Positions 40,942 through 49,083 of a DNA stretch of 64,000 nt are shown one piece after another. Within the stretch, counting starts at the first letter, position 1. The number at the start of each line of letters is the position of its first letter. Under the pieces are notes generated by a model. That model saw nothing but the letters and a program-made list of their open reading frames with translations, was not told the DNA's origin and searched no databases. Source of the stretch: Isosphaeraceae bacterium (GTDB lineage Bacteria > Planctomycetota > Planctomycetia > Isosphaerales > Isosphaeraceae); the NCBI GenBank assembly GCA_031291845.1, contig JARLIH010000110.1:1-64000 (forward strand). The letters run 5' to 3'. Both the position numbers and the translations under genes were made by a program.

Positions 40942-41218
40942 CACGAAAGAATTTCGCGAACCGCGCGAACATCTCGTTGGGGAGCCGCGTCTCTTAGGGT
41001 GTGACGACGAGACGAGGGGCTGAGTGAAACACACCGGCCCTCGGTCACGTCGGGTTGAAACGACACGAGAGGTTGTGATGTACGCCTTGTGTTCTTATTC
41101 GGATCGCAGTGGTTATGAAGCGCGACGCTTCGCCCGGCAACAGGCGAACCCGCTGTCGCTCCATCCCCTGCGGTTGTGACATCAGGCCTTTGAACATCCT
41201 CCTCGTGGAGTCTTCAAG
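40942..41218. other. Leader region before the tRNA array
   Basis: No protein gene is seen. The region starts with CACGAAAG and, 12 bases on, CGCGCGAACATC (40962-40973); both words recur in the same order upstream of the second tRNA group (46001-46044). A weak promoter-like pair (TTGTGA near 41074, TATTCG 17 bases later) precedes about 120 bases that end in a strong terminator hairpin, so a small RNA or a leader/attenuator is possible. This is inference. Confidence 0.35.
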
Positions 41219-41248
41219 GCCCGGTGTCACCAGACACCGGGCTTTTTT
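41219..41248 (+). terminator. Rho-independent terminator before the tRNA array
   Basis: A perfect 10-bp stem (41219-41228 with 41233-41242, GCCCGGTGTC/GACACCGGGC) has a 4-base loop and is followed by six T (41243-41248). It lies 9 bases before the first tRNA gene. It could end the hydroxylase transcript, end a small RNA, or act as an attenuator for the array. Confidence 0.85.
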
Positions 41249-41257
41249 CGTGGACAC

Positions 41258-41329
41258 GGGTCGGTAGCTGAGACGGACTAGCGGCTGGTTGAAGCCCAGC
41301 AGACGGGGATTCGAGCGCCTCCCGACCCA
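41258..41329 (+). tRNA. tRNA-Phe(GAA)
   Basis: Acceptor GGGTCGG pairs with CCGACCC; discriminator A. Anticodon loop TTGAAGC lies between GCTGG and CCAGC. The T-stem has one A-G mismatch at its inner pair. First gene of the array. Confidence 0.88.
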
Positions 41330-41342
41330 CTCCCAAAAGCAC

Positions 41343-41415
41343 GGCCTGTTCGTCTAGCGGCGCAGGATACCGCTCTTTCAAGGCGGAGAGGTGGGTTCGA
41401 CCCCCACACGGGCTG
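41343..41415 (+). tRNA. tRNA-Glu(TTC)
   Basis: Acceptor GGCCTGT pairs with ACGGGCT (first pair G-U); discriminator G, as usual for Glu. Loop CTTTCAA gives anticodon TTC. The T-arm GTGGG/CCCAC is perfect. Confidence 0.88.
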
Positions 41416-41441
41416 CTCGCACCGTTCGCGGTCTGTCCATC

Positions 41442-41516
41442 CAGGGCGTGGGAAAGCCTGGCTAATCCGCAAGCTCGGGGAGCTTGAGAGCGCCGGTTCA
41501 AATCCGGCCGCCCTGA
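41442..41516 (+). tRNA. tRNA-Pro(GGG)
   Basis: Acceptor CAGGGCG pairs with CGCCCTG; discriminator A. Loop TCGGGGA between CAAGC and GCTTG gives GGG. Confidence 0.9.
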
Positions 41517-41535
41517 TTGTCCGTGTGTCGACTGC

Positions 41536-41610
41536 CGGGACGTAGGAAAGCCTGGCTAATCCGCCTGCCTTGGGCGCAGGAGAACGCCGGTTCGAATCCG
41601 GCCGTCCCGA
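41536..41610 (+). tRNA. tRNA-Pro(TGG)
   Basis: Acceptor CGGGACG pairs with CGTCCCG; discriminator A. Loop CTTGGGC between CCTGC and GCAGG gives TGG. A 63-base spacer follows, with CCCCGG able to pair with the next tRNA's 5' end. Confidence 0.9.
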
Positions 41611-41673
41611 CTGAAGTGGAGGCGTAGTGATGTGTGATTGGAAACGCAAACCCCGGGTTGCTCGGTGTCATCC

Positions 41674-41745
41674 GGGGTCGTGGTGTAACGGCGGCACATC
41701 GGCCTTTTAAGCCGGGAGGTGGGGGTTCGAGTCCCTCCGGCCCCA
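41674..41745 (+). tRNA. tRNA-Lys(TTT)
   Basis: Acceptor GGGGTCG pairs with CGGCCCC; discriminator A. Loop CTTTTAA gives TTT. All stems form. Confidence 0.88.
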
Positions 41746-41760
41746 TTTGAGAAAACATGA

Positions 41761-41833
41761 CGGCGCGTAGCTCAACGGTCAAGAGCATCCGGCTGATAAC
41801 CGGACGACGAAGGTTCGACTCCTTCCGGGCCGA
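41761..41833 (+). tRNA. tRNA-Ile(GAT)
   Basis: Acceptor CGGCGCG pairs with CGGGCCG with one G-G mismatch; discriminator A. Loop CTGATAA between TCCGG and CCGGA gives GAT. Confidence 0.85.
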
Positions 41834-41857
41834 TCGGAGAGGTGAATAGGAATGCAC

Positions 41858-41930
41858 GGGACCAAAGTTCTAGCGGCAGAACATCTGGCTCTTAACCAGC
41901 ACGGTGAGGGTTCGAGCCCCTCTGGTCCCA
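41858..41930 (+). tRNA. tRNA-Lys(CTT)
   Basis: Acceptor GGGACCA pairs with TGGTCCC; discriminator A. Loop CTCTTAA between CTGG and CCAG gives CTT; the outer anticodon-stem pair is mismatched. Confidence 0.87.
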
Positions 41931-41945
41931 CTCGGGTGGTTTGTT

Positions 41946-42017
41946 GCACTGGTCGTCTAGCGGCGAAGACTCCGCACTCGTAAGGCGGCGACGTGGGTTC
42001 GAGTCCCACCCGGTGCT
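41946..42017 (+). tRNA. tRNA-Thr(CGT)
   Basis: Acceptor GCACTGG pairs with CCGGTGC; discriminator T. Loop CTCGTAA gives CGT; the inner anticodon-stem pair is A-G. Confidence 0.85.
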
Positions 42018-42049
42018 CTCTGCTCATTGACAATTCGGTGACCGCGAAA

Positions 42050-42120
42050 GTGCCCATGATGTAGCGGCAGCCTACTGCCTTGCCATGGCGGATGTGCGGG
42101 TTCGACTCCCGCTGGGCACT
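42050..42120 (+). tRNA. tRNA-Gly(GCC)
   Basis: Acceptor GTGCCCA pairs with TGGGCAC; discriminator T. Loop TTGCCAT between CTGCC and GGCGG gives GCC. Confidence 0.88.
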
Positions 42121-42135
42121 CTGTCGGAAACGTTC

Positions 42136-42210
42136 CGGGATGTGGGAAAGCTTGGCTAATCCGCCTGCTTCGGGAGCAGGAGAACGCCGGTTCAAATCCG
42201 GCCATCCCGA
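42136..42210 (+). tRNA. tRNA-Pro(CGG)
   Basis: Acceptor CGGGATG pairs with CATCCCG; discriminator A. Loop TTCGGGA between CCTGC and GCAGG gives CGG. Very similar to tRNA-Pro(TGG) at 41536. Confidence 0.9.
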
Positions 42211-42228
42211 CTGAGACGCGAGATTGAT

Positions 42229-42303
42229 TCCGGTGGAGTTCGTGCTGGAACGAGCGCCCGGCTGTTAACCGGGAGGTCGCAGGTTCGATTCCTGCCGCCG
42301 GAG
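42229..42303 (+). tRNA. tRNA-Asn(GTT)
   Basis: Acceptor TCCGGTG pairs with CGCCGGA; discriminator G, as usual for Asn. Loop CTGTTAA between CCCGG and CCGGG gives GTT. Confidence 0.9.
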
Positions 42304-42315
42304 CTGACGGTTTTC

Positions 42316-42399
42316 GGAAGGGCCAGCCGATGGGCGACGGCACCCGGCTCGAACCCGGGCGAGCGATGAGCCTTGAGGGTTCGACTCCCTCTCCTTCCG
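42316..42399 (+). tRNA. tRNA-Ser(CGA)
   Basis: Acceptor GGAAGGG pairs with TCCTTCC; discriminator G. Loop CTCGAAC gives CGA. A long variable arm (about 15 bases) marks a class II tRNA. Confidence 0.9.
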
Positions 42400-42410
42400 C
42401 CTCGCGATTT

Positions 42411-42482
42411 GTGCCCTTGGCCGAGCGGCTGAGGCTCTGCCCTCCCAAGGCAGTCAGGCGGGTTCGACTCCCGCAGGGCACT
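42411..42482 (+). tRNA. tRNA-Gly(CCC)
   Basis: Acceptor GTGCCCT pairs with AGGGCAC; discriminator T. Loop CTCCCAA between CTGCC and GGCAG gives CCC. Confidence 0.9.
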
Positions 42483-42483
42483 C

Positions 42484-42554
42484 TCGGGAATCGGCTAATG
42501 GCAGGCTGCTTGGCTTTGAACCAGGTGGTGGAGGTTCGAGTCCTCCTTCCCGAA
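42484..42554 (+). tRNA. tRNA-Gln(TTG)
   Basis: Acceptor TCGGGAA pairs with TTCCCGA; discriminator A. Loop CTTTGAA gives TTG. Only one base separates it from the preceding gene. Confidence 0.9.
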
Positions 42555-42565
42555 CTTTCTGTGAC

Positions 42566-42640
42566 TCCGGGGCAGTTGCGGTTGGTCGTGACGCCACGCT
42601 CTGAACGTGGAGGCCGCTGGTTCGATTCCAGCCCCCGGAA
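42566..42640 (+). tRNA. tRNA-Gln(CTG)
   Basis: Acceptor TCCGGGG pairs with CCCCGGA; discriminator A. Loop CTCTGAA between CCACG and CGTGG gives CTG. Confidence 0.9.
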
Positions 42641-42653
42641 CTCTCGTGCTGAC

Positions 42654-42740
42654 GGAAGCCAACCGGCCGGATGAGGGACCTGTCTTGAAAACAGGCGGCG
42701 GCCCCTGGGCCGCTTGTGGGTTCGAGTCCCACGGCTTCCG
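42654..42740 (+). tRNA. tRNA-Ser(TGA)
   Basis: Acceptor GGAAGCC pairs with GGCTTCC; discriminator G. Loop CTTGAAA between CCTGT and ACAGG gives TGA. Long variable arm with GCGGCCC..GGGCCGC hairpin. Confidence 0.92.
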
Positions 42741-42752
42741 CCTCGAAGCGCC

Positions 42753-42826
42753 GCCCAGGTACGCCAACCGGCTGAGCGGCTCGGCTTAAACCCGGGCGTC
42801 TGTGGGTTCGAATCCCACCCTGGGCA
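42753..42826 (+). tRNA. tRNA-Leu(TAA), short variable arm
   Basis: Acceptor GCCCAGG pairs with CCTGGGC; discriminator A. Loop CTTAAAC between CTCGG and CCGGG gives TAA. The variable region is only CGTCT, so this is a class I shape, unlike normal bacterial tRNA-Leu. D-stem CGC/GCG is shared with the Leu genes at 43013 and 43363. Confidence 0.85.
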
Positions 42827-42839
42827 CTGCGATCAAAAC

Positions 42840-42913
42840 GGCTCGGTAGGCAACCGGTAGACCACTCTCGCTCAGACCGAGAGATGCTGAGGGTTCGAAT
42901 CCCTCCTGAGCCA
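42840..42913 (+). tRNA. tRNA-Leu(CAG), short variable arm
   Basis: Acceptor GGCTCGG pairs with CTGAGCC; discriminator A. Loop CTCAGAC between TCTCG and CGAGA gives CAG. Variable region about 5 bases. Confidence 0.85.
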
Positions 42914-42929
42914 CTTGCCTCGCGTTATC

Positions 42930-43002
42930 GCCCTCGTAGAGTCGGTGGGAGGCTCGCCTGGTTGTCAGCCAGGAGATACGGGTTCAACTCCCGTCGAGGG
43001 CG
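42930..43002 (+). tRNA. tRNA-Asp(GTC)
   Basis: Acceptor GCCCTCG pairs with CGAGGGC; discriminator G, as expected for Asp. Loop TTGTCAG between CCTGG and CCAGG gives GTC. Confidence 0.92.
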
Positions 43003-43012
43003 CTCGGAGGAT

Positions 43013-43087
43013 CGCACGGTACGCAAACCGGTAAAGCGGCCAAGCTCAAACCTTGGTGAGCTGTGGGTTCGACTCCCACTCGTGCGA
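43013..43087 (+). tRNA. tRNA-Leu(CAA), short variable arm
   Basis: Acceptor CGCACGG pairs with TCGTGCG; discriminator A. Loop CTCAAAC between CCAAG and CTTGG gives CAA. The variable region is about 5 bases. Confidence 0.85.
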
Positions 43088-43100
43088 CTCGATCCAACAT

Positions 43101-43183
43101 GCGTCGGCTGGGCATTGGCGGGCCCGCGTGCCTGTAGAGCACGTTCCCCTGCGGACTTGGCGGTTCAACTCCGTCCCGGCGCA
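43101..43183 (+). tRNA. tRNA-Tyr(GTA)
   Basis: Acceptor GCGTCGG pairs with CCGGCGC; discriminator A. Loop CTGTAGA between CGTGC and GCACG gives GTA. A long variable arm is present, as usual for bacterial Tyr. Confidence 0.9.
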
Positions 43184-43188
43184 CTCAT

Positions 43189-43260
43189 GGCTCTGTCGTC
43201 TACCGGCTAGGACACCACCCTCTCAAGGTGGAGAAGCGGGTTCGACTCCCGTCAGGGCTA
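43189..43260 (+). tRNA. tRNA-Glu(CTC)
   Basis: Acceptor GGCTCTG pairs with CAGGGCT (first pair G-U); discriminator A. Loop CTCTCAA between CCACC and GGTGG gives CTC. Confidence 0.88.
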
Positions 43261-43283
43261 CTTTGGAAGAGATTCTCCCATTT

Positions 43284-43351
43284 TGCGGGTGGGCCGGCGC
43301 TCGTCCGAGTTTCATACGCTTGGAGGCGGGGTTCGACTCCCCGACCCGCAA
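43284..43351 (+). tRNA. tRNA-Met(CAT) or Ile2, shortened D-arm
   Basis: Acceptor TGCGGGT pairs with ACCCGCA; discriminator A. Loop TTCATAC between CGAGT and GCTTG gives CAT. Only about 13 bases are left for the D-arm, so the gene is 68 bases. It lacks the G-C-rich anticodon stem of an initiator. A CAT anticodon could also be modified to read AUA. Confidence 0.72.
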
Positions 43352-43362
43352 CTCTCAACGTT

Positions 43363-43436
43363 GGCACGGTACGCTAACTGGCATCGCGGCCAGAATGAGA
43401 TTCTGGTGCTTGTGGGTTCGACTCCCTCCCGTGCTA
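43363..43436 (+). tRNA. tRNA-Leu(GAG), short variable arm
   Basis: Acceptor GGCACGG pairs with CCGTGCT (first pair G-U); discriminator A. Loop ATGAGAT between CCAGA and TCTGG gives GAG. Variable region about 5 bases; one T-T mismatch in the T-stem. Confidence 0.82.
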
Positions 43437-43449
43437 CTGCCTTCGGTTT

Positions 43450-43522
43450 CGTCCCGTCGTCTAGCGGCGAAGACGCCTGTCTTACAAACAGGTTAGCGCA
43501 GGTTCGAGTCCTGCCGGGACGA
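43450..43522 (+). tRNA. tRNA-Val(TAC)
   Basis: Acceptor CGTCCCG pairs with CGGGACG; discriminator A. Loop CTTACAA between CCTGT and ACAGG gives TAC. Confidence 0.9.
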
Positions 43523-43539
43523 CTCGCTGTGATGTCATC

Positions 43540-43611
43540 GGTCCGCAGGTGTTACCGGCGGCACGCCTCCGTGGTAGGGAGGTGGACCGGGTTCGAGTCC
43601 CGGGCGGACCT
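43540..43611 (+). tRNA. tRNA-Thr(GGT)
   Basis: Acceptor GGTCCGC pairs with GCGGACC; discriminator T. Loop GTGGTAG between CCTCC and GGAGG gives GGT. Confidence 0.9.
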
Positions 43612-43621
43612 TTGCGGTGAT

Positions 43622-43692
43622 GGGCGGCTGGTCCAATGGGACGACACCTGGCCTGCAACCAGGAAATCGGGGTTCGACTCCCCGGCTGTCCA
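43622..43692 (+). tRNA. tRNA-Ala(TGC), C at position 33
   Basis: Acceptor GGGCGGC pairs with GCTGTCC and includes a G3-U70 pair, the known Ala identity element; discriminator A. Loop CCTGCAA between CCTGG and CCAGG gives TGC, but position 33 is C instead of the near-universal U. Reading it as Cys would need a shifted loop and does not fit the acceptor. Confidence 0.78.
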
Positions 43693-43705
43693 CTCGCGGT
43701 GTTTC

Positions 43706-43791
43706 GGAAGGTAGCCGGATACGGTTGGCCGGGCCTCGGTGCTAACGAGTGCGCCTGAAAGGGTGTGAGGGTTCGACTCCCTTGCCTTCCG
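43706..43791 (+). tRNA. tRNA-Ser(GCT)
   Basis: Acceptor GGAAGGT pairs with GCCTTCC (T-G inner pair); discriminator G. Loop GTGCTAA between CTCG and CGAG gives GCT. Long variable arm. Confidence 0.88.
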
Positions 43792-43801
43792 CTTGCTGTT
43801 C

Positions 43802-43874
43802 GTCCCGATGGTGAAACGGAGGATCATGCCTCGGTCCTAACGAGGAGTTCCGGGTTCGAGTCCTGGTCGGGGCA
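43802..43874 (+). tRNA. tRNA-Arg(CCT)
   Basis: Acceptor GTCCCGA pairs with TCGGGGC; discriminator A. Loop GTCCTAA between CCTCG and CGAGG gives CCT. Nearly identical over its core to the next gene, so the two are a tandem duplication with diverged anticodon. Confidence 0.9.
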
Positions 43875-43879
43875 TGTTG

Positions 43880-43952
43880 GCCCTGGTGGTGAAACGGAGG
43901 ATCATGCCTCGCTTCTAACGAGGAGTTCCGGGTTCGAGTCCTGGCCGGGGCA
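43880..43952 (+). tRNA. tRNA-Arg(TCT)
   Basis: Acceptor GCCCTGG pairs with CCGGGGC; discriminator A. Loop CTTCTAA between CCTCG and CGAGG gives TCT. Tandem relative of tRNA-Arg(CCT). Confidence 0.9.
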
Positions 43953-43965
43953 TTGGAGAGAAAAC

Positions 43966-44038
43966 GATCCCGTCGTCTAGCGGCGAAGACATCCCTTTGA
44001 CGTGGGGAAGAGCGGTGGTTCGAGTCCACCCGGGATTA
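43966..44038 (+). tRNA. tRNA-Val(GAC)
   Basis: Acceptor GATCCCG pairs with CGGGATT (first pair G-U); discriminator A. Loop TTGACGT between TCCCT and GGGGA gives GAC. Confidence 0.87.
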
Positions 44039-44041
44039 TTG

Positions 44042-44126
44042 GGAAGGGCCACCCGATCTGGCGACGGGACCCGCTTGGAAAGCGGGCGAGCCATTGGCCT
44101 TGCGGGTTCGACTCCCGCCCCTTCCG
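44042..44126 (+). tRNA. tRNA-Ser(GGA)
   Basis: Acceptor GGAAGGG pairs with CCCTTCC; discriminator G. Loop TTGGAAA between CCCGC and GCGGG gives GGA. Long variable arm. Confidence 0.92.
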
Positions 44127-44157
44127 CTCCGGCGCGTTGCCGGTATTTCGCTGTGAT

Positions 44158-44229
44158 GGTGTCCGTGGTGTAAAGGCAGCACTCCTGCTTGTGAGGCAGG
44201 CGGCATCGGTTCGAGTCCGTTCGGGCACC
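44158..44229 (+). tRNA. tRNA-His(GTG)
   Basis: Acceptor GTGTCCG pairs with CGGGCAC; the extra 5' G (44158) can pair with discriminator C (44229), the His hallmark. Loop TTGTGAG between CCTGC and GCAGG gives GTG. Last gene of the first group. Confidence 0.92.
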
Positions 44230-44258
44230 CTCGTCGTAACCTTGCCGTGGAGGCTATG

Positions 44259-44849
44259 ATGACCACCAACGTATTGGAGCTCCCCACTCTCGTTCTGAAC
44301 CGGCAGTGGCAACCGATCCACGTCACGACCGTCGTGCGGGCGCTCGTGATGCTCTGGAATGAGACGGCGAAGGTCGTCGAGCCCGACGAGTTCCGGCTCT
44401 ACGACTGGGAGGCGTGGGCCGAGCTCGAGCCGGCCGAGGGCGCGCCCTGTGTGCGGGCCGCGCGGCTGCGGCTGCGGGTCCCGGAAGTCGTGAGCCTGGC
44501 CCACTATGACCGGCTCCCGAGCACGGCCGTCACCTTCAGCCGGCGCAACGTTGCGAAGCGCGACCACCACACGTGCCAGTACTGCGGCACCCAGCCGGGA
44601 GGCGAGTCGATCACCGTCGACCACGTCGTGCCGCGGTCGCAGGGTGGGGCGTCGAGCTGGACCAACTGCGTCGCCGCGTGCGTGGAGTGTAATGCCCGCA
44701 AGGCCGACCGCACCCCCGAGCAGGCCGGGATGCGCCTGCGCAAGCGCCCCGTCCGGCCCGAATGGAAGCCGTTTTACGCCGCCCAGGGGGCCCGCGTCTC
44801 GAGCTGGGCCAGGTTCATGGCCCACGAGCCGGCCCTGGTCACGGCCTGA
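44259..44849 (+). CDS. HNH endonuclease
   Basis: This 196-residue protein has an HNH module at about 105-155: zinc pair CQYC, then VDHVVPRSQGG (catalytic DH), the central Asn in WTNCV, and a second zinc pair CVECN followed by ARK. The N-terminal 90 residues (LNRQWQPIHVTTVVRALVMLWN) are the domain usual for this bacterial HNH group. Starts at 44256 and 44259 are both ATG; 44259 fits the GGAGG site better. It begins about 30 bases after the last tRNA of the array, so it may share its transcript. The DNA or RNA target is unknown. It could be a stand-alone housekeeping HNH or part of a mobile tRNA island. Confidence 0.88.
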   Translation: MTTNVLELPTLVLNRQWQPIHVTTVVRALVMLWNETAKVVEPDEFRLYDWEAWAELEPAEGAPCVRAARLRLRVPEVVSLAHYDRLPSTAVTFSRRNVAKRDHHTCQYCGTQPGGESITVDHVVPRSQGGASSWTNCVAACVECNARKADRTPEQAGMRLRKRPVRPEWKPFYAAQGARVSSWARFMAHEPALVTA

Positions 44850-45838: not shown

Positions 45839-46184
45839 TGATCCATCCTCCTGGCGTGCCGCAGGGCTTGTTGGCCGATCGAACTCGCCCGGCCCACTAC
45901 GTCATTCTACGGACTGGATGGGTGCAGGGCCAGAGACCGTCAATGCGTCTTATGCCCCAGGATCAACCTGTTGACGGGTCGGCCGCGAGGTGGCGATCGA
46001 CACGAAAGGAATCGGCGAAGGCCGGCGAGAATCGCGCGAACATCAGGGTAGAGAACGGCGTCCATCTACTTGACACGATTTCGTACGTTGCACCGCGCGG
46101 AGAAGCAACGAATGTGGAAAAAAGAAAGTCGACCATTGAGAGGGGTGTAAAGAAAGCAGTCGCTGCGAATCGTGTAGTATTGAC
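45839..46184. other. Divergent region between the HEPN operon and the second tRNA group
   Basis: No gene is seen. The region should hold the promoter of the leftward HEPN operon and that of the rightward tRNA group. It shares CACGAAAG (46001-46008) and CGCGCGAACATC (46033-46044) with the leader of the first array. TTGACA occurs at 46070 and TAGTAT at 46175, but they are not correctly spaced, so no promoter is assigned. Confidence 0.4.
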
Positions 46185-46254
46185 AGGGGCGTGCTCCTGG
46201 GAGAGCAACGAGCCTCCAAAACTCGCGCACAGGGTTCGAATCCTTGCGCCCCTG
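46185..46254 (+). tRNA. tRNA-Trp(CCA)
   Basis: Acceptor AGGGGCG pairs with CGCCCCT; discriminator G, as expected for Trp. Loop CTCCAAA gives CCA. The D-loop is short (about 6 bases), and the anticodon stem has one C-A mismatch. First gene of the second group. Confidence 0.85.
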
Positions 46255-46266
46255 CTTTTGCCAAAT

Positions 46267-46339
46267 GCCCTTGGAGTGTGACGGATGCGCACGCGACCCT
46301 CCGAAGGTCGCAGACCAGGTTCGACTCCTGGCGAGGGCA
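46267..46339 (+). tRNA. tRNA-Arg(CCG)
   Basis: Acceptor GCCCTTG pairs with CGAGGGC; discriminator A. Loop CTCCGAA between GCGACC and GGTCGC gives CCG. Confidence 0.88.
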
Positions 46340-46340
46340 C

Positions 46341-46411
46341 TCTCCGCGAGTGTGGTGGACGCACGGCGGTCTTCGAAGCCGCCAGGCCGGGTTCAACTCC
46401 CGGGCGGAGGA
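46341..46411 (+). tRNA. tRNA-Arg(TCG)
   Basis: Acceptor TCTCCGC pairs with GCGGAGG (first pair T-G); discriminator A. Loop CTTCGAA between GCGGT and GCCGC gives TCG. Confidence 0.83.
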
Positions 46412-46417
46412 AACCGA

Positions 46418-46490
46418 GTCCTCGGAGTGTGCCGGATTCGCACGCGACTTTGCGAAGGTCGTAGACCAGGTTCAATTCCTGGCGAGGACA
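46418..46490 (+). tRNA. tRNA-Arg(GCG)
   Basis: Acceptor GTCCTCG pairs with CGAGGAC; discriminator A. Loop TTGCGAA between CGACT and GGTCG gives GCG. Bacteria normally use ACG (inosine) for CGN codons, so GCG is unusual. Confidence 0.87.
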
Positions 46491-46506
46491 TGTCTTCTTC
46501 ACGAAT

Positions 46507-46577
46507 GACGCTGGAGCCAGACGGCCAGGCGACCGGCTGCAACCCGGTTCAAGTGGGTTCGACTCCCACCGGCGTCT
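46507..46577 (+). tRNA. tRNA-Cys(GCA)
   Basis: Acceptor GACGCTG pairs with CGGCGTC; discriminator T, as expected for Cys. Loop CTGCAAC between ACCGG and CCGGT gives GCA. Only 4 bases separate it from the mini Y-RNA candidate. Confidence 0.9.
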
Positions 46578-46581
46578 CTGT

Positions 46582-46934: not shown

Positions 46935-47068
46935 ACAAGGCCGACTGCCGGTTGGAGTCCATGCCTGAAAGCAGGAGGTTGTGGGTTCGAGTCCCGCCGG
47001 CGCTGCGAGGTGCCGTAGCTCAATGGTAGAGCGCCAAAAAGCTCTGGCCAATCCTTCGTCGGTCTTGT
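46935..47068 (+). ncRNA. YrlA-type Y RNA with permuted tRNA-like module
   Basis: The ends form an 11-bp helix (46935-46945 with 47058-47068, one G-U). Inside are the TGCC/TTC internal loop and a second helix, GGTTGG/CCAATCC. The centre is a tRNA in permuted order: T-arm GTGGG-TTCGAGT-CCCGC (46981-46997), acceptor 3' strand CGGCGCT, GCGA tetraloop (47005-47008), acceptor 5' strand GGTGCCG, bases TA, then D-arm GCTC-AATGGTA-GAGC (47018-47032). Acceptor strands pair over 7 bp. YrlA RNAs, known partners of bacterial Ro proteins, have exactly this plan. The TROVE gene starts about 400 bases downstream. Confidence 0.85.
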
Positions 47069-47075
47069 CCGAAAC

Positions 47076-47181
47076 ATGCTCGACTGCCGGTGTGGAGTCC
47101 ATGGCTTATCGAGTTCGACTCTCGACCGGCCCGCTCTGGTTCGATCGGGCCGGAAACTCTGCCCAACACTTCGTCGAGCAT
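47076..47181 (+). ncRNA. Second Y RNA candidate with partial tRNA-like module
   Basis: ATGCTCGAC (47076-47084) pairs perfectly with GTCGAGCAT (47173-47181). The TGCCG/TTC internal loop and a TGTGG/CCAACA helix follow, as in the first copy. Inside are a perfect T-arm TCGAG-TTCGACT-CTCGA (47109-47125) and a perfect 7-bp acceptor-like helix CCGGCCC/GGGCCGG, capped by a 14-base loop instead of a GNRA tetraloop. No D-arm follows. It is 7 bases after the first candidate, so the two are probably co-transcribed. Confidence 0.72.
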
Positions 47182-47463
47182 TCTTGAATTCATGCAAATC
47201 CGGTGAAGTCTTCCCGACCACCGGCCTTCTTGGTGTGAGCCCGATGACCCGAACGCGACCGATTCTGCGGCGTCCGTTCCTCCGTGACCCACCGCGGCGC
47301 GGCTCACACCGTCACGAACCTCTGCCCGAATCTTCGTTGCGCGCGGCAACGGGCCGCGTCCCAACTGCCCGAGCGGAGTCCATCGCCATCTCGAACGCCA
47401 GGGAGCGTGCGCCCCCGGTTTGAGACGGACGATCGCACTCCGCACAGTGAAGGAGGTGACCCC

Positions 47464-49083
47464 ATGGCCAACAAGAGCTTGTTCTCCAGCGCGCAAACCC
47501 TGCTGCCCCGCGCGGATACGGTGAACATGGAAGGCGCCCGCGCCTACGCGCTGCCCCCGAAGCACGCGCTGGCCCAGCTTGCGGCGACCGGCTGCTTTGG
47601 CGGGACCTTCTACGCGGGCGCCGAGGCCCAGTTGGCCAACCTCCTGTCGCTGGCCGAGCAGGTCGAGGACAACGTCTTCCTGGCGAAGCTCGCTGTGTAC
47701 AGCCGTGAGAAGGCGTTCCTGAAGGACATGCCGGCGGCGTTGCTGCTCGTGCTCTCGCGGCGCGACCGGGCGCTGTTCCACCAGGTGTTCGACCGGGTCG
47801 TCGACAACGGGCGCGTCCTGCGCACGTTGTTCCAGATGCTGCGCTCCGGGCAGTTCGGCCGCAAGAGCCTGTCGTACTCGGTGCAGCGCGCCTTCCAGCG
47901 CTGGCTGAACGAGGCGTCGGTGAGCCGCCTGCTCGCCGCGTCGATCGGGCACGACCCGAGCCTGCGCGACGTCCTGCGCCTGGCGCGGCCCACGCCGCCC
48001 GACAACGCGCGCCGGGCGTTGTTCGGCTGGTTGACCGACAAGCCGGTCGATCGCTGGGCGCCGGCGACGGCCGATGACCTGCCGGACGAGGTCCGCGCCC
48101 TCAAGGCTTACCGAGAGGCCGCGACCGAGGCAGCGCAGGCCGCCGTGCTGGCCGAGTCGCGGTTCCGCTGGGACCTGCTCGCCGACGCGGCCAAGGGACC
48201 GCTCGTCTGGAAGGCGATCGCCCGGCAGATGGGTCCGCAGGCCCTGCGCATGAACCTGAACACGCTGCGCCGGCACGGTGTCCTCGATGACGCCGAGTTG
48301 GTCGACCATGTCGCGGGTCGCCTCGCCGACGCGGACGAGATCCGTTCGTCGCGGCAGTTTCCGTACCAGTACCTCGCCGCGTACCTGAATGCCGGGGACG
48401 ACGTTCCGCAGGCGCTCAAGGCCGCGCTGGGGGAGGCCGCGGAAACGGCGTGCGGCAACGTCCCCGAGTTGGCGGGTCCGGTCGTGATCGGGGTCGACGT
48501 TTCGGGCTCGATGCAGTCACCCATCACGGGGCACCGCGGCGCGGGCTCCACGACGAAGGTGCGGTGCGTGGACGTCGCGGCTCTGTTTGCGGCGGCCATC
48601 CTGCGCCGCAATCCCGACAGCCTGATCGTTCCGTTCGACGACCGGGCACACCAGGCGCAGGTCGACCCGGGGGATGCGATCCTCAGCTTGGCAGCTCGCC
48701 TGGCGGAGTACGGCGGCGGCGGGACTGACTGCTCCCTTCCGCTCGCTGAGGCGAACCGTGCGCACCGCGACCGCAAGTTCGCCGGCTGCGTTCTGGTCAG
48801 CGACAACCAGAGCTGGGTCGGCGATGGCCTGTACGGCTCGACAGCCGTCATGACCGCGTGGCAGGAGTTCGTGAAGAACCAGGTTCGGCTGCACGGTCGC
48901 GAATTCACCGGCCCCAAGCTGGTGTGCATCGACTTGCAGCCCTACGGCTCGACGCAGGCTCCCGAACGCTCGGACATCCTCAACGTCGGCGGCTTCAGCG
49001 ACGCCGTGTTCTCCGTGGTCGTGTCGTTCCTGGGGGACGGCCCCGCGCGGTTCGTCGCGGAGGTCGAGTCGGTCGTCTTGTAG
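47464..49083 (+). CDS. TROVE/Ro60-family RNA-binding protein (Rsr-like)
   Basis: This 539-residue protein starts at [15 protein letters not shown], with AAGGAGGTG well placed upstream. The N-terminal TROVE domain (about 25-330, helical repeats; [39 protein letters not shown]) would form a ring that holds RNA ends. The C-terminal vWA-like domain (about 340-539) has the metal-site motif DVSGSMQ plus GGTDCSLP. The length matches bacterial Rsr and animal Ro60, which bind Y RNAs and misfolded RNAs and work with exonucleases. The Y-RNA-like genes directly upstream and the 38 tRNAs nearby support an RNA quality-control role. Confidence 0.93.

Follow-up and report, generated by a model that had tools for sequence, protein, structure and literature searches.

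The window (a 64,000-nt stretch of a 69-kb contig) comes from a planctomycete genome of 9.7 Mb, with a completeness of 98.5% and a contamination of 9.2%. It carries a two-block tRNA array together with an HNH gene, Y RNA-like genes and a Ro60 gene, as follows:

41258 to 44230, forward strand: block 1 of the tRNA array, from Phe to His (ARAGORN; Ser(TGA) via Rfam)
42654 to 42740, forward strand: tRNA-Ser(TGA) with a long variable arm (Rfam RF00005, 33.4 bits; missed by ARAGORN)
44256 to 44849, forward strand: HNH endonuclease gene, lying between block 1 and block 2 (Pfam HNH, 5.6e-14)
46185 to 46578, forward strand: block 2 of the tRNA array, with Trp, three Arg and Cys (ARAGORN)
46938 to 47068 and 47077 to 47183, forward strand: two YrlA-like (Y RNA-like) genes (Rfam RF02553)
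47464 to 49083, forward strand: Ro60/Rsr (TROVE) gene (Pfam TROVE and Ro60 vWA), the only one found in the genome

Thirty-seven tRNA genes were called by ARAGORN and Ser(TGA) was added from Rfam, giving 38 genes, each with its own anticodon, that together serve all 20 amino acids and under strict wobble read 55 of the 61 sense codons. With 37–38 tRNA genes in 5.3 kb, the array exceeds in both number and density the threshold of PMC5966550 for a tRNA array unit, which is 20 or more tRNA genes at 2 or more per kb. It is supernumerary, since 72 tRNA matches were obtained genome-wide, with chromosomal Leu, Ser, Tyr, Thr and Arg tRNAs, besides others, among them. The tRNA-Met(CAT) gene at 43284–43352 has only 69 bases and a very short D arm. 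The few flanking genes that were scanned look chromosomal, and are planctomycetal in protein type. Searches by DNA similarity recovered homologous arrays from many genomes in at least three planctomycete families, with a tRNA content that varies from genome to genome; comparison with phages and plasmids gave DNA similarity only at single tRNAs (2–5% of the query). Long tRNA arrays described previously (Tran 2016; Morgado and Vicente, PMC5966550; PMC12803027) likewise consist of dense extra tRNAs for all amino acids, carry an HNH gene, and accompany a complete host set. The present array is a member of this known kind, and a variant with class I tRNA-Leu, an attenuator-like head and a Ro60/YrlA neighbour; in the part of the array literature that was covered, no description was found of a leader ORF and attenuator, of a Ro60/YrlA neighbour, or of consistently class I tRNA-Leu.

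Homologues of the HNH gene are found within or next to the arrays of many planctomycetes, and likewise at arrays of Elusimicrobia, of Cyanobacteria and of proteobacterial plasmids; mycobacterial arrays likewise carry an HNH gene (PMC5966550), and the Anabaena HNH gene all8564 is regulated by TrcR (PMC10272220). The Anabaena TrcR box, TGTAGTAT, is absent at the array head. Its only copy in the window (0.06 expected) is at 46173–46180, 4 nt before tRNA-Trp, which is too close for a −10 box. The two YrlA-like genes score 49.7 bits (E = 5.6e-10) and 18.6 bits, both under the gathering score of 69. An array from another planctomycete family (L067, 1258–3438) has the same Ro60 gene and two tandem YrlA-like RNAs downstream. 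The combination that marks an Rsr–YrlA module, a TROVE gene with an adjacent YrlA-like RNA, is thus present here with YrlA below the gathering score. Ro60 and YrlA occur in bacterial RNA-repair contexts, and their position next to the array points to RNA damage as the occasion for its use, which would tie bacterial tRNA arrays to RNA damage. In Rsr–YrlA–RtcBA RNA-repair operons a Ro60 gene likewise adjoins YrlA-like RNAs, whereas the module in the window is linked to a tRNA array, and RtcB is encoded elsewhere in the genome (C392).

Four tRNA-Leu genes lie within block 1, with variable-region lengths counted using a 5-bp anticodon stem:

42753 to 42827, forward strand: tRNA-Leu(TAA), variable region 5 nt (ARAGORN; Rfam tRNA, 52.0 bits)
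42840 to 42914, forward strand: tRNA-Leu(CAG), variable region 6 nt (ARAGORN; Rfam tRNA, 43.1 bits)
43013 to 43088, forward strand: tRNA-Leu(CAA), variable region 6 nt (ARAGORN; Rfam tRNA, 51.7 bits)
43363 to 43437, forward strand: tRNA-Leu(GAG), variable region 5 nt, single T-stem mismatch (ARAGORN; Rfam tRNA, 41.7 bits)

The original prediction had described these genes as having variable regions of about 5 bases and discriminator A, and this is borne out by lengths of 5, 6, 6 and 5 nt and by A73 in all four. It had also assigned long arms to the array Ser and Tyr tRNAs, which were found at 15–16 nt in Ser(CGA), Ser(GCT), Ser(GGA) and Tyr, with Ser(TGA) long too, and a common CGC/GCG D-stem to three of the Leu genes, which are TAA, CAA and GAG, the D-stem of Leu(CAG) being different. 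Class I tRNAs have variable regions of 4–5 nt (PMC7609411); at 5–6 nt, the array tRNA-Leu lack the long arm that is the bacterial norm and are counted here as class I. All five chromosomal tRNA-Leu genes found in the same genome (CAA, L030; TAA, L032; TAG, L035; CAG, L036; GAG, L037) are normal class II, with arms of 13–18 nt, so that the short-armed chromosomal genes that would have spoken against the original prediction were not found.

The short form is not confined to this genome. Among homologous arrays and loci added later, ARAGORN identified 60 distinct short-armed and 11 long-armed tRNA-Leu, a ratio biased towards the short form, as the DNA query that found most of these loci contained short Leu genes. 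The variable regions of the 60 measure 4–9 nt (29 with 5, 18 with 6, 10 with 7). Because short Leu genes of this type turn up again in homologous arrays, those in the window are not a product of chance. GTDB contigs were then scanned with a degenerate pattern (Leu anticodon, A14 A15, short variable region), yielding at least 83 short-armed tRNA-Leu (83 of 85 among the places read). Among the matches listed, short Leu occur in arrays of Cyanobacteria, Actinobacteria, Elusimicrobia, Bacillota, Bacteroidota and Planctomycetota, so that arrays with the short form are present in at least five phyla besides Planctomycetota, and all five Leu anticodons are short in Cylindrospermum (L190) and in an elusimicrobial array (L152). 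In many Actinobacteria (L125–L201, e.g. L128, L143 and L174), including Nocardia, Mycobacterium, Streptomyces and Bifidobacterium, a class I tRNA-Leu gene stands alone; its anticodon is mostly UAA or CAA, and it has a GCC/GGC D-stem and A9. The short shape is recurrent in arrays, yet not obligatory: its presence in every array is excluded by plasmid arrays of Variovorax, Methylibium and Curtobacterium, which have normal class II Leu. Leu variable regions of 11–13 nt, between class I and class II, were observed in an Acidiphilium plasmid array (L045). The textbook rule that bacterial tRNA-Leu is class II therefore has many exceptions.

As to origin, the array Leu are 67–73% identical among themselves and only 51–62% identical to chromosomal Leu, which excludes their being recent copies of host tRNA-Leu; in A9 and a distinct D-stem they resemble class I Leu of other arrays and of Actinobacteria, and not the class II Leu of the host. 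Of the interpretation offered originally, the suggestion of a separate origin is accordingly supported and the implied uniqueness of the short arms is wrong, class I tRNA-Leu being widespread in bacteria; the further suggestion that the shape avoids an enzyme is unlikely to apply to LeuRS, as the known bacterial LeuRS determinants are largely kept.

In E. coli, these determinants are A73, A14, the A15–U48 Levitt pair, G18G19 and A20a (A14 named for the mitochondrial comparison), and tRNA-Leu variants without the long arm remain chargeable (PMC9976931). Among the 60 short Leu, A14 is present in 57, U48 in 59, GG in 59 and A73 in 58, with A15–U48 (43/60) and A20a (47/60) less constant; all six determinants occur together in 34 of the 60, whereas among the 430 remaining class I array tRNAs 26 have all six. 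Ten of the sequences without A15 have C at that position; they are of the Leu NAG type, whose D arm is shorter by one base. Of the genes in the window, Leu(CAA) and Leu(GAG) carry all determinants, Leu(TAA) lacks A20a, and Leu(CAG) has C at aligned position 15 and one base fewer in its D arm. The host genome encodes one LeuRS, of bacterial type, and no second LeuRS dedicated to the array was found in it. The LeuRS gene (G000:C150:2153-4966) is a single frame of 1011 aa that the bacterial model covers in two separate matches, ~40 extra codons apart. From the retained determinants we infer that the short array tRNAs would accept leucine from the single host LeuRS. Animal mitochondrial tRNA-Leu also lack the long arm and are recognised by LeuRS via A73 and A14 (PMC9976931); the tRNAs in the window differ in being bacterial, in belonging to an extra set, and in having a canonical class I core, in a host that keeps class II Leu. 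Dispensability of the long arm for bacterial LeuRS has so far rested on engineered E. coli variants and on mitochondria, and class I tRNA-Leu with LeuRS determinants constitute a natural test that a bacterial LeuRS can do without it.

The short arms may be explained if LeuRS has no need of the long arm, as in animal mitochondria, and the arm disappears from tRNAs whose evolution is separate from that of the host set. SerRS requires the long arm of serine tRNAs (PMC7609411), a need that the long arms of the array Ser fit, and the array Tyr and Ser have probably kept their arms because their own synthetases need them. Evasion of nucleases that act on long arms is a plausible alternative; since array Ser and Tyr keep long arms, a general arm-cutting threat is weakened as an explanation, and any protection would be limited.

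The region ahead of the array contains the following elements:

40965 to 40992, forward strand: ECF-type promoter-like site, GCGAACATC-N13-GCGTCT, ahead of the array and upstream of tRNA-Phe
41078 to 41179, forward strand: leader ORF of 33 codons, MYALCSYSDRSGYEARRFARQQANPLSLHPLRL and a stop, with GAGAGG ahead (ORF kept in related leaders)
41176 to 41230, forward strand: predicted antiterminator, in which GTGACATC (41176–41183) pairs with GGTGTCAC (41223–41230) (MFE fold)
41216 to 41248, forward strand: intrinsic terminator, AAGGCCCGGTGTC-ACCA-GACACCGGGCTTT-TTT, kept in relatives, ~10 nt 5′ of the first tRNA
46036 to 46063, forward strand: second copy of the promoter-like site, with one mismatch, before block 2

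The motif G[CT]GAAC-N14-19-CGTCT was found in 28 of 36 array heads, with 0.05 expected from shuffles, and only five sites with at most one mismatch to the promoter-like site occur in the 9.7 Mb, two of which precede the two tRNA blocks of the window. We take its GAAC/CGTC pair to resemble ECF sigma-factor promoters. The same order of promoter-like site, leader ORF and terminator precedes arrays of several planctomycete families. In 12 of 20 curated related leaders the ORF is exactly 33 codons long (30–39 in the others), and its sequences are divergent, with an end that is often PLR[L/M/T]-stop encoded by different codons, which suggests that selection acts on the leader peptide. The MFE fold of the window leader contains the antiterminator (z = −3.7), with an inner helix at 41185–41194/41213–41221, and GTGACATC includes the leader stop codon. 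As this stop-codon segment base-pairs with the terminator's 5′ arm, antiterminator and terminator are predicted to be mutually exclusive.

The pairing was assessed across a hand-picked table of 25 heads, a small sample whether counted as 25 rows or as 20 distinct pairs of curated sequences. Standard pairing holds at 111 of the 120 positions in the 20 pairs, and 18 of the 25 heads are fully paired. The compensatory score, 117, compares with a mean of 33 under shuffling, and in this control, which takes no account of relatedness, a value as high arose once in 5000 shuffles. Coupled exchanges include GACACC/GGTGTC, GACTCC/GGAGTC, AACACC/GGTGTT (with a TAA stop) and AGCACC/GGTGCT (with a TAG stop), so that the pairing is found with TGA, TAA and TAG stops; some array heads have no terminator or use another pairing register. 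Since the head elements are conserved and covary across planctomycete families, ribosome-sensed attenuation at the array head is likely on comparative grounds. A leader that senses all amino acids is not supported, its variety (25 different codons, 15 different amino acids) not exceeding the background (21.5 and 14.1; matched or beaten by 9% and 41% of background stretches), and no bias to particular amino acids was found, which makes general translation failure or the end of the nascent peptide a more likely signal than any single amino acid. Attenuators of the trp type likewise have a leader ORF and a competing antiterminator and terminator, followed by structural genes; the head described here differs in preceding tRNAs, in having no single-amino-acid run, in placing the stop codon inside the antiterminator strand, and in its PLR[L/M/T] end. 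No known Rfam leader element matches the array head, and no earlier description of such a leader before tRNA arrays was found in the portion of the literature covered; to that extent the array-head ECF-like promoter, the leader ORF, and the stop-codon antiterminator competing with a terminator are new.

We regard it as probable that the array is a stress-inducible spare tRNA set under leader attenuation, whose short Leu can be charged by the host LeuRS. This reading draws on the observed anatomy, conservation, covariation and retained identity elements, and has a precedent in the Anabaena trn operon, which stays silent until translational stress induces it (PMC10272220). The array would be off by default, with the ECF-like promoter yielding a leader RNA. 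A ribosome reaching the stop of the 33-codon leader would cover the 5′ strand of the antiterminator, so that the terminator forms and transcription ends; when translation of the leader fails, with tRNAs damaged or cleaved or ribosomes inhibited, the antiterminator would form and the array would be transcribed. Its four tRNA-Leu, having dropped the long arm and kept the D-loop, Levitt-pair and A73 determinants, would receive leucine from the host LeuRS, and the array tRNAs would serve as substitutes alongside the RNA-repair-type Ro60/YrlA module. A conserved, covarying attenuator would give long tRNA arrays a direct signal, namely failed translation of the leader. The Anabaena operon is a plasmid tRNA array, silent and stress-induced, with an HNH gene and RtcB co-regulated; control there is by TrcR, an RHH repressor at the −10 box, whereas the array in the window has an ECF-like promoter, a translated leader and a terminator. 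On this reading, the array looks like an emergency kit, with spare tRNAs that can be induced when translation or RNA is damaged, and not like genetic debris. A more specific version, put forward tentatively and in our judgement somewhat improbable, holds that bacteria keep a complete, attenuated second tRNA set, that it is released when the 33-codon leader is left unfinished, and that its host-LeuRS-charged Leu were remade as class I to survive attacks on long arms.

The foremost alternative, which we consider unlikely, sees the array as a passenger that was acquired horizontally and is in decay, relaxed selection having allowed the Leu arms, on which nothing would depend, to disappear. It would account for the low Rfam scores, for odd genes such as the 69-nt Met and the Leu(GAG) with its T-stem mismatch, and for the varying array content; a published study judged planctomycete tRNA clusters degenerate and dispensable (PMC4807772), which counts against a stress-inducible spare set. 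Decay does not fit the conservation of the tRNA bodies: between the host and a congener (G001), array tRNA identity is 0.909 versus 0.54 for spacers (random 0.44), and against G005 the tRNAs are 84% and the spacers 50% identical, the spacers being near saturation, so that by sequence comparison the array tRNAs appear to be under purifying selection. Acceptor stems differ among arrays by compensatory types (ARAGORN itself selects paired stems), short-Leu variable regions cluster at 5–7 nt with U48 kept, and promoter, leader and terminator are conserved, all of which argue against decay.

A role of the array tRNAs as decoys or sponges that draw off a tRNA-attacking toxin or a phage nuclease, with no need of a translation function, is less probable still. 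Arrays have been discussed as anti-defence elements (PMC12803027), and an HNH gene and Ro60 lie within the cluster; a near-complete anticodon set and retained identity elements would however be superfluous for decoys, and the short Leu lack an arm that such a nuclease could bind. Charging of the short Leu with another amino acid, recoding Leu codons under stress, is highly improbable: the shape departs from normal Leu and a class I form could conceivably admit other synthetases, but A73, A14, A15–U48 and G18G19 are largely kept and homologous arrays hold all Leu anticodon families in one design. A supply of short Leu to a non-ribosomal aminoacyl-tRNA-dependent reaction, which the solitary class I tRNA-Leu of many Actinobacteria, with no obvious translational need, would bring to mind, is equally remote, as the neighbours that were scanned include no recognisable aminoacyl-tRNA-using enzyme and the short Leu here stand within a full tRNA set, with four Leu anticodons.
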